Source: Actinomarinicola tropica
GTDB lineage: Bacteria; Actinomycetota; Acidimicrobiia; Acidimicrobiales; SKKL01
Assembly (NCBI RefSeq): GCF_009650215.1
Contig: NZ_CP045851.1
Location: 2,569,001 to 2,633,000 of the forward strand
Direction of reading: 5' to 3'
Length of the DNA: 64,000 nt
A program made the translations under genes and the position numbers. Position 1 is the stretch's first letter, and every line of letters starts with the position of its first letter. The notes beneath the pieces were generated by a model, which did no database searches, was not told the DNA's origin, and worked only from the letters and a program-made list of their open reading frames with translations. Shown in pieces: positions 35,409-55,641 of the stretch.

Positions 35409-35849
35409 TCAGGCCTCCGGACGTCCCTCGAGGATCCACCGTGGGCCGGCCCCGTGGGTGGATGCCACGTCGTCGCGGTTGTAGAGCCCGCACGACGAGA
35501 GCGAGAGGCACCCGCAGCCGATGCAGGAGTCGAGTTGGTCCCGCAGCCGCTCGAGCTGCGCGATGCGTTCGTCGACGAGCGGACGCCACCGGCGTGAGAG
35601 CACCGCCCAGTCCCGGGCGGTGGGCGTGCGGTTCTCCGGGAGCGACGCCAACGCCTCGCGGATCTGGTCGAGGGTGAGACCCAGCTGTTGGGCGATGCGG
35701 ATGAACGCGACCCGCCGCAGCGCGTCGCGGTGGTAGCGGCGCTGGCCGCCGTCGGTCCGCTCGGTCTGGAGCAGCCCCTCCGCCTCGTAGAAGCGGAGGG
35801 CGGAGTGCGGCACGCCCGACCGCTCTGCGACCTCACCGATCGTCAACAT
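35409..35849 (-). CDS. soxR: SoxR redox-sensing MerR-family regulator
   Basis: 146 aa. N-terminal MerR helix-turn-helix (LTIGEVAERSGVPHSALRFYE), dimerisation helix, and the [2Fe-2S] ligands in CIGCGCLSLSSC at Cys109, Cys112, Cys114 and Cys120 (CX2CXCX5C), exactly the SoxR pattern. It senses redox-cycling compounds or superoxide and turns on target promoters with over-long spacers. A SoxR-type dyad lies 35 nt upstream and another at 54.6 kb. ATG at 35849 fits the MerR N-terminus; a GTG 12 nt earlier is possible. Confidence 0.95.
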   Translation of the reverse strand: MLTIGEVAERSGVPHSALRFYEAEGLLQTERTDGGQRRYHRDALRRVAFIRIAQQLGLTLDQIREALASLPENRTPTARDWAVLSRRWRPLVDERIAQLERLRDQLDSCIGCGCLSLSSCGLYNRDDVASTHGAGPRWILEGRPEA

Positions 35850-35860
35850 CGTCGACAGCA

Positions 35861-35915
35861 CGCACGGCCCCCCATCTCGCGACCTCGATCGAGATCGAGC
35901 GTAGGGGGCCGTGCG
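35861..35915. promoter_or_regulatory. Nested palindromes upstream of soxR: 12-bp outer stem, SoxR-like dyad in the loop
   Basis: Outer arms CGCACGGCCCCC (35861-35872) and GGGGGCCGTGCG (35904-35915) are exact inverted repeats. Inside lies CCTCGATCGAGATCGAGC (35883-35900), which fits CCTC-N10-GAG(G/C), the layout of the E. coli SoxR box. The outer hairpin can end the upstream clostripain transcript, and the inner dyad can serve SoxR autoregulation. It fills the 77-nt gap between the two minus-strand genes. Confidence 0.65.
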
Positions 35916-35926
35916 GACGCTGCGGC

Positions 35927-53722: not shown

Positions 53723-54598
53723 ATGCTCCTCACCGAAGGCCGAGCCACCGTCGGCGACATCGAGCTCGCGTACCTCGACACCGGCGGCGACGGCCCGCTC
53801 GCCCTCTGCCTCCACGGGTTCCCCGACACCGCGTGGGGGTGGCGCCACCTGCTGCCGGAGCTGGCCGACGCCGGGTACCGAGCCGTGGCCCCGTTCATGC
53901 GCGGGTACGCGCCGAGCGGCCTGGCGCCCGACGGCGTCTACCAGACGGGTGCCCTGGCATCGGACGCCGTCGGTCTCCACGAGGCCCTCGGCGGCGACGC
54001 CGACGCGGTGGTGATCGGGCACGACTGGGGTGCGCCGGCTGCCTACGGGGCGGCGAACCTCGCCCCCGACCGCTTCCGGCGGGTGGTCGGGGCGGCCGTG
54101 CCGCCCGGCGGCGCGATGGCCCGGGCGTTCCTCGACCCGGCCCAGCTCCGCCGCTCCTGGTACATGTTCTTCTTCCAGCACCCGCTCGCCGACGCCGTCG
54201 TCCCGATGGACGACCTGGCGTTCATCGGCGGGCTATGGGACGACTGGTCCCCGGGCTACGACCACGCCGAGGACCTGGCGCACGTCCGCGACGCCCTCGG
54301 CGACCCCGCGCACCTCGCGGCCGCGCTCGGCTACTACCGGGCGACGCTCGGCGACGGACCGCGGGACCCCTCCCTCGACGAGGCCCAGGCCGCCACCGGC
54401 CGCCTGCCCGACCAGCCGCTCCTCTACCTCCACGGGGTCGACGACGGCTGCGTCGGCATCGACGTCGCCACCTCGGTGTCCTCGGAGCTGCCCGACGGGT
54501 CGCGCATGGTCGCGGTGGACGGTGCAGGCCACTTCCTCCAGCTCGAGCAGCCGACCATCGTGAACGAGCTCGTGCTGTCCTTCCTCGCCGAGGGCTGA
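53723..54598 (+). CDS. Epoxide hydrolase-like alpha/beta-hydrolase
   Basis: 291 aa. HGFPDTAWGWRH is the HGXP oxyanion motif; the nucleophile elbow GHDWGAP has Asp, as in epoxide hydrolases and haloalkane dehalogenases. The acid loop is LHGVDDGCVG and the base is His in GAGHFLQLEQP. A lid region (about 140-210) lies between. The Asp nucleophile argues against an esterase. Confidence 0.85.
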   Translation: MLLTEGRATVGDIELAYLDTGGDGPLALCLHGFPDTAWGWRHLLPELADAGYRAVAPFMRGYAPSGLAPDGVYQTGALASDAVGLHEALGGDADAVVIGHDWGAPAAYGAANLAPDRFRRVVGAAVPPGGAMARAFLDPAQLRRSWYMFFFQHPLADAVVPMDDLAFIGGLWDDWSPGYDHAEDLAHVRDALGDPAHLAAALGYYRATLGDGPRDPSLDEAQAATGRLPDQPLLYLHGVDDGCVGIDVATSVSSELPDGSRMVAVDGAGHFLQLEQPTIVNELVLSFLAEG

Positions 54599-54611: not shown

Positions 54612-54642
54612 TTGACCTCGAGCACGGTCGAGGTCGTAGGTT
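54612..54642 (+). promoter_or_regulatory. SoxR/MerR-type promoter with 19-bp spacer
   Basis: -35 TTGACC (54612-54617) and -10 TAGGTT (54637-54642) are 19 bp apart, the long spacer that MerR-family activators correct. The spacer holds the dyad GACCTCGA (54614-54621) / TCGAGGTC (54628-54635). CCTC-N10-GAGG matches the SoxR box layout, and GACCTCGA recurs in the dyad by soxR. The -10 ends 6 nt before the ATG. Confidence 0.68.
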
Positions 54643-54648
54643 CCGCCC

Positions 54649-55641
54649 ATGCTCGACCAGCCGCTCTCGTTCCGCCCGTACGCTCCGTCCGCCGACGAGC
54701 CGAACGTCGTGGTCGACGGCACGCCGAACGCCGGCACGACGCTCACGCTGTCCCACTGGCCCGGCGCGCCGCTCCCCGCACCGGAGGTCGCGGCCGACCT
54801 GTCGGCCCAGATGGCGTTCCGCTACCTCGAGCACCCCGAGGTGCTCCACGGCGCCGCGACGGTCGTCACCGCCAACCACTTCGACCAGGACGGCCTCGTC
54901 AGCGTCTGGGCCATGACGTCCCCCGCCGACGCGAGCGCCCTCCGTCCCCTCGCCGAGGACCTGGCGGCCGCCGGGGACTTCGCCACCTACCGCGACCGCC
55001 GCGCCGCGAGGGCGTCGATGGTCGTCTCGGCGTTCGCCGACCCCGACCGCTCGCCGGTGCCGACCCGCGGCGACGACCGGCTGGCGGAGCTGTTCGTCGA
55101 CGCCCTCGGCCGCCTCCCGCAGCTGCTCCTCGACCAGGATCCCTACGCCACGCTGTGGGAGGAGGAGGACGCGCACCTGAGCGCGTCGGAGGCGGCGCTG
55201 GCCGACGGACGCATCTCGATCGATGAGCACGCCGACGTCGACCTCGCGGTCGTCGACGCGCCCGCCGCTCCGTGGTGGGGGCACCGGTTCGGGGGGCGTC
55301 GGTACGACGGCGTGCACCCGATGGCCCTCCACGGCGCGACCGACAGGGGCGTCATCCTCCTCAGCACCGGCGACACGCACCGGGTCACCTACCGCTACGA
55401 GTCGTGGGTGCAGCTGCGCAGCCGTCGGGTGCGACCGCGGATCGACCTCGGGCCGGTGGCCGAGGAGCTCTCGGACCTCGACGACGCGCCGTGGCGCGCC
55501 GACCCGCCCGGGGAGCTCACGCCCCAGTTGGAACCGGTCGCCGGCGCCTCGGCGCTGTCGCGCGCATCGGTGCTCGAGGTGCTCGTCCGCCACCTCCGTG
55601 ACGACCCGGTGGCCTTCGACCCCTACGCCCCGCCGAGCTGA
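54649..55641 (+). CDS. Uncharacterised protein (DUF6687-like), predicted SoxR-type promoter
   Basis: 330 aa, soluble. Conserved-looking blocks are RPYAPSADEPNVVVDGTPNAG, TLSHWPG, TANHFDQDGLVSVWA, and HRVTYRYESWVQLRSRRVRPR. The H-F-D-Q-D-G block recalls metal- or phosphate-binding DHH-type motifs, but I cannot show homology. From memory this resembles DUF6687; function is unknown. A promoter with a 19-bp spacer and SoxR-like dyad precedes it, suggesting induction by redox stress. Confidence 0.7.
   Translation: MLDQPLSFRPYAPSADEPNVVVDGTPNAGTTLTLSHWPGAPLPAPEVAADLSAQMAFRYLEHPEVLHGAATVVTANHFDQDGLVSVWAMTSPADASALRPLAEDLAAAGDFATYRDRRAARASMVVSAFADPDRSPVPTRGDDRLAELFVDALGRLPQLLLDQDPYATLWEEEDAHLSASEAALADGRISIDEHADVDLAVVDAPAAPWWGHRFGGRRYDGVHPMALHGATDRGVILLSTGDTHRVTYRYESWVQLRSRRVRPRIDLGPVAEELSDLDDAPWRADPPGELTPQLEPVAGASALSRASVLEVLVRHLRDDPVAFDPYAPPS

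Follow-up and report, generated by a model that had tools for sequence, protein, structure and literature searches.

Which regulator, if any, controls the gene that begins at position 54649 of a 64,000-nucleotide stretch of Actinomarinicola tropica DNA (hereafter the window, to which all simple coordinates refer)? The gene (54649..55641, + strand) encodes a 330-aa protein that was regarded as uncharacterised when the original prediction placed it behind a SoxR-like promoter. The protein can be assigned to Pfam family PF20392/DUF6687 (E 1e-84), whose members occur in Acidimicrobiia, Gammaproteobacteria and Cyanobacteriota, among other groups, and a literature search by family name returned no paper naming DUF6687.

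Direct reading of the sequence at 54612-54642, TTGACCTCGAGCACGGTCGAGGTCGTAGGTT, confirms a −35 hexamer TTGACC (54612..54617, + strand) and a −10 hexamer TAGGTT (54637..54642, + strand) separated by a 19-bp spacer (54618-54636), along with a dyad whose left arm GACCTCGA (54614-54621) pairs perfectly over 8 bp with its right arm TCGAGGTC (54628-54635). The arms had been described as lying between the hexamers; their pairing is perfect as claimed, but the left arm begins at 54614, within the −35 hexamer itself. The predicted SoxR box, CCTCGAGCACGGTCGAGG (54616..54633, + strand), falls within the 22-bp dyad (54614-54635). Two features expected of a SoxR promoter are present here, namely a CCTC-N10-GAGG core with dyad symmetry at 54616-54633 and a box positioned amid −35 and −10 elements that are 19 bp apart at 54612-54642. 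The −10 hexamer is followed by CCGCCC and then by the ATG at 54649, and a start codon located only 6 nt past the −10 element suggests that the DUF6687 mRNA is probably leaderless. The box region occupies the 50-bp gap between the stop codon of an alpha/beta hydrolase gene (ending at 54598) and this ATG, and the gene following DUF6687 encodes an HhH-GPD protein on the opposite strand.

The arrangement resembles that of the Escherichia coli soxS promoter, where the SoxR box also lies amid hexamers 19 bp apart and the −35 element (TTTACC) is in the same register, such that 17 of the 31 positions are identical. The 31-nt soxS site was recovered in 5350 of 5426 genomes, and lies between soxR and soxS in the one record inspected. 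The two promoters differ in their arms (CCTCGA/TCGAGG before DUF6687, CCTCAA/TTGAGG before soxS), in the nature of the target, which encodes no regulator here, in the placement of the DUF6687 start codon, which falls at the 5′ end predicted for its mRNA, and in the location of soxR, which is 19 kb away rather than adjacent. The passages on Stenotrophomonas maltophilia mfsA in PMC4411124 likewise describe a SoxR box between −35 and −10 elements with a 19-bp spacer, as is seen for DUF6687, whereas the mfsA target is an efflux pump gene divergent to soxR.

The window also contains the gene for the candidate regulator. The soxR gene (35409..35849, − strand) encodes a 146-aa protein that scores 207.1 bits against the TIGR01950 SoxR equivalog model, for which the cut-off is 116.9, and that carries the cysteine cluster CIGCGCLSLSSC. 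The original prediction had tied this gene to the DUF6687 promoter, 19 kb away, through the recurrence of GACCTCGA in a dyad beside soxR. We dropped this clue, which is weak by itself: the word occurs 55 times in the window, and the soxR-side dyad (35881..35902, + strand) is imperfect, with three mismatches to the full arms. A search of the window with the full arms at three mismatches gives four matches against 1.93 expected, and at least four are found in 17 of 100 shuffles, so the dyad is within chance. This dyad is a possible weak autoregulatory site, and degenerate box-like sequences are likewise found upstream of soxR in two relatives (G001 and G008). By eye, it is nested in a larger inverted repeat, CGCACGGCCCCC ... 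GGGGGGCCGTGCG (35860-35920), which is perhaps the terminator of a neighbouring gene.

To follow the complete promoter layout, we used the search pattern TTGACCTCNANNNNNNTNGAGGTNNTANNNT, which includes 18 fixed bases. Because this pattern was drawn up with the site already seen, tests of conservation weigh more than its rarity. When 397 genomes of the order were surveyed with at most one mismatch, 87 sites were found in 66 genomes, and the reversed control gave none; the TANNNT element belongs to the pattern, so the −10 element of these sites is present by construction. Twenty-three of the 87 sites are divergent to soxR and within 100 bp of it, and one further site lies 79 bp from soxR on the same strand. 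SoxR, scored as present at E 1e-22 or below, is encoded by 101 of the 397 genomes, including 52 of the 66 that carry a site versus 49 of the 331 that do not. When kinship is allowed for by counting genera only, soxR is found in 41 of the 50 site-bearing genera versus 28 of the 153 others (p 5e-16). The remaining 14 of the 66 genomes with sites have no SoxR match at this threshold, and may be incomplete or use another regulator.

An in-frame start codon lies 6-8 nt past the −10 element in 58 of the 80 sites that are followed by an open reading frame of at least 80 aa. As the script selected whichever in-frame start was closest to 7 nt, this count should be read as an upper limit for leaderless messages. 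Of these 80 reading frames, 76 were scanned against Pfam (L092, L109, L137 and L141 were excluded by eye as doubtful frames). Among the matches listed, which cover 25 of 50 families and may count one protein in several, are Questin_oxidase (9), ABC_tran (8), ABC_membrane (6), PNPOx_N (5), Transketolase_N (4), Glyoxalase (4), MIase (4), DUF6687 (3), adh_short (3), ADH_zinc_N (3) and FMN_red (2). The downstream classes thereby include ABC transporters, transketolase N-termini, short-chain dehydrogenases/reductases (SDR), zinc-type dehydrogenases and FMN reductases. They overlap with the SoxR regulon of Streptomyces coelicolor: the SoxR targets named in passages of PMC4146615 are an ABC transporter, several enzymes (oxidoreductases, a monooxygenase, an epimerase/dehydratase and a quinone oxidoreductase) and, in S. 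avermitilis, a putative transketolase with SoxR-binding sites. DUF6687 is not among the targets named in those passages.

Two other groups of genes recur behind the boxes of the order. Questin-oxidase-like proteins form the commonest Pfam class (9 of 76; L074, L075, L076, L087, L121, L122 and L151 were recognised by eye), and a literature search found no paper with both SoxR and questin oxidase. Small proteins of ~100-110 aa with a Cys-Cys pair, for which no name was found, were also noticed by eye (L070, L128, L129, L131, L132, L133, L142 and L150).

The genome scan for the site layout that had been proposed was carried out on the organism's own genome (G000) with up to three mismatches, and yields seven matches, one each with zero, one and two mismatches and four with three, against none for the reversed pattern. 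The one-mismatch site lies upstream of an SDR gene, and the SDR proteins encoded behind boxes in G001 and G305 share 64% (over 174 aligned residues) and 58% identity with the product of this gene. The two-mismatch site is followed at a distance of 73 nt, and hence not in a leaderless arrangement, by a gene for an ABC transporter ATPase; relatives of this ATPase with 67% identity follow zero-mismatch boxes in G239 and G081.

Does the box accompany DUF6687 genes elsewhere? The original prediction regarded absence of the dyad upstream of orthologues as evidence against it, and on this point the outcome is divided. A full box precedes DUF6687 in the organism's own genome, in G001, in G008 and at the locus L195, where the box has two mismatches to the pattern and its arms have changed yet still pair. 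A fifth genome, G336, retains the right half and the −10 element, which abut a 100-N assembly gap, and the locus L229 exhibits a different MerR-like layout with weaker pairing and four mismatches. Across the order, DUF6687 is encoded by 48 of the 397 genomes, of which 43 were examined (excluding G090, G153, G220, G244 and G278). Three of these have a full box (our genome included) and one the half box, and no box was found in the other 39; the idea that a box precedes all DUF6687 genes was accordingly rejected. A scan of 77 of 78 further loci (the fragment L268 was excluded) identified full boxes only in L193, which is the record of G001, and in L195, in addition to the variant in L229.

The minority of DUF6687 genes that carry the box are related to each other and come from soxR-bearing genomes. 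In a tree of 48 proteins, all five proteins with a box or half box fall in a single clade of 13 with support 99/96, and the box possibly had one origin followed by losses. SoxR is encoded by all five of these genomes, as well as by the genome of L229, and in G000, G001 and G008 the box and soxR lie 12.8-21 kb apart on a single contig. The other eight proteins of the clade have no box, and soxR is present in four of those eight genomes, so that the comparison within the clade is 5/5 versus 4/8 (p 0.10, half box included). Among the order's DUF6687 genomes the corresponding counts are 4/4 versus 12/44 (Fisher p 0.009, with the five unexamined genomes counted as boxless), or 4/4 versus 11/39 in a hand recount restricted to examined genomes.

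The most serious alternative is that the box is read by another MerR-family activator, for example a SoxR-like paralogue, in which case the promoter would answer another signal. The genome has 10 MerR_1 matches, only one of which (soxR) is within the window, and of these proteins SoxR and the paralogue were the two sought in other box-bearing genomes. The paralogue (G000:C1:3423018-3423431) reaches 89.7 bits on the SoxR model, below the cut-off of 116.9, and is adjoined by a site, TTGACCTCAACATATGTTGAAGCTGCACGCT, with the same 19-bp-spacer layout and three mismatches to the pattern. However, the sites adjoining the paralogue have TTCAAC/GTTGAA-like arms that are unlike CCTCGA/TCGAGG, soxR adjoins 23 of the 87 boxes, and a one-way search with the paralogue recovers SoxR itself as the best match in G001, G008, G336 and the L195 genome (36-43% identity), with weaker matches in G008 and G336 (35-36%). 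Of the two regulators sought, only SoxR has a clear counterpart in each box-bearing genome, and the paralogue was rejected as a common regulator of the box. The paralogue lacks the full cysteine cluster and is divergent to a gene that, by eye, resembles an FMN reductase gene (L032, L025; G000:C1:3422000-3424500).

A second observation bears on the same alternative. In G073, a genome with no SoxR match, the gene behind a zero-mismatch SoxR-type box (contig C62, L145) encodes a different MerR protein whose C-terminus carries CGC-x5-C. Together with the 14 site genomes that lack a SoxR match, this case suggests that SoxR is not the sole possible reader of such boxes. For the DUF6687 promoter, we nevertheless consider a reader other than SoxR clearly unlikely. 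Elsewhere in the A. tropica genome, a further MerR gene near a molybdopterin oxidoreductase-like gene (recognised by eye; L027, L031; G000:C1:3591000-3594800) is accompanied by the dyad TTGACCTGGAGTCGACTCCACGTCGTACCGT, which we take to be NmlR-like.

It is very improbable, and disfavoured by the following counts, that the dyad arose by chance in a GC-rich genome in which GACCTCGA is abundant (6.6-fold above the 8.4 copies expected in the window, with nine perfect 8-N6-8 inverted repeats there) and that the DUF6687 gene is constitutive: TTGAC and TANNNT at the matching distance occur once in the window, at 54612-54642, the full pattern with up to three mismatches likewise matches once there (with no mismatch) and in none of 100 dinucleotide shuffles, and the box is retained before DUF6687 in other genomes even though its central bases differ. 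The bare CCTC-N10-GAGG core, to which the original prediction had appealed, is indeed present; it is uninformative by itself and was rejected as evidence for a site, with 155 matches in the genome against 36 for the reversed control.

We therefore favour the reading in which 54612-54642 is a predicted SoxR-activated promoter of the MerR type, which we judge likely, because the soxR product passes the SoxR model, the hexamers are in the soxS register, similar sites occur across the order, soxR is associated with these sites at the level of genera, and boxes precede a minority of orthologous genes. The DUF6687 gene would very probably be an added member, and its family an added family, of a SoxR-type regulon. 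The proposal of a SoxR-like promoter on a possible redox-stress gene is in this way strengthened by the soxR-adjacent sites, the overlapping target classes and the presence of SoxR in each of the five genomes where a full or half box precedes DUF6687.

DNA twisting is the established mode of activation for SoxR and other MerR-family activators. By analogy, we infer that a SoxR dimer, produced from soxR 19 kb away, would occupy the dyad between the −35 and −10 elements, whose 19-bp spacer would exceed the length that a sigma factor can use. Oxidation of the SoxR [2Fe-2S] cluster by redox-active compounds would then lead SoxR to twist the promoter DNA, allowing RNA polymerase to start at or next to A54649 and to produce a leaderless DUF6687 mRNA.

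The role of the protein itself was approached through its predicted structure. An AlphaFold2 model (pLDDT 94, pTM 0.92) has 7d62_B as its best VIA-align match (Z 9.1, rmsd 5.9, 233 aligned residues), a score only slightly higher than the Z of 7-8 that is typical of models without a clear match. The 50 matches listed are mostly NanoRNase, RecJ, Cdc45 and related chains, which, like NrnA and PggH, belong to the DHH/DHHA1 superfamily. Foldseek ranks NrnA first (E about 1e-3, TM 0.27), all of its E values staying above 0.001, and a viral fold library gave no match at E ≤0.001. DHH/DHHA1 phosphoesterases such as NrnA, PggH and RecJ are the best structural matches listed for the model, but sequence and profile searches produced no convincing link from DUF6687 to any experimentally determined structure or to a further Pfam family, and when its profile was compared with five DHH proteins from relatives, the probability was 0.2 (E 0.31). 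The DHH tripeptide is absent from the DUF6687 consensus (42 sequences), which contains HFDEDG; H77, D79, D81 and D110 are invariant. Since no sequence test supports the relationship and the DHH motif is missing, the model weakly suggests a resemblance of fold only. As a separate observation, PF01368 (DHH) was found in 5 of 15 genomes searched and in none of the DUF6687-bearing genomes G000, G001 and G008.

A bolder proposal, which we put forward tentatively and regard as rather unlikely, is that DUF6687 is a diverged DHH/DHHA1-fold phosphoesterase that was placed under SoxR in one actinobacterial DUF6687 lineage. If so, redox-active compounds would switch on an enzyme that processes nucleotides or phosphodiesters rather than an oxidoreductase or a pump. 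Among the titles listed by a literature search, none was of a SoxR-regulon study for this order of Acidimicrobiia (the class being taken from the names of relatives), to which the present findings would extend predicted SoxR control. They offer a functional lead for DUF6687, a family for which no paper was found under its name, and with the order-wide list of sites, several unstudied families can be tested for a role in redox stress.
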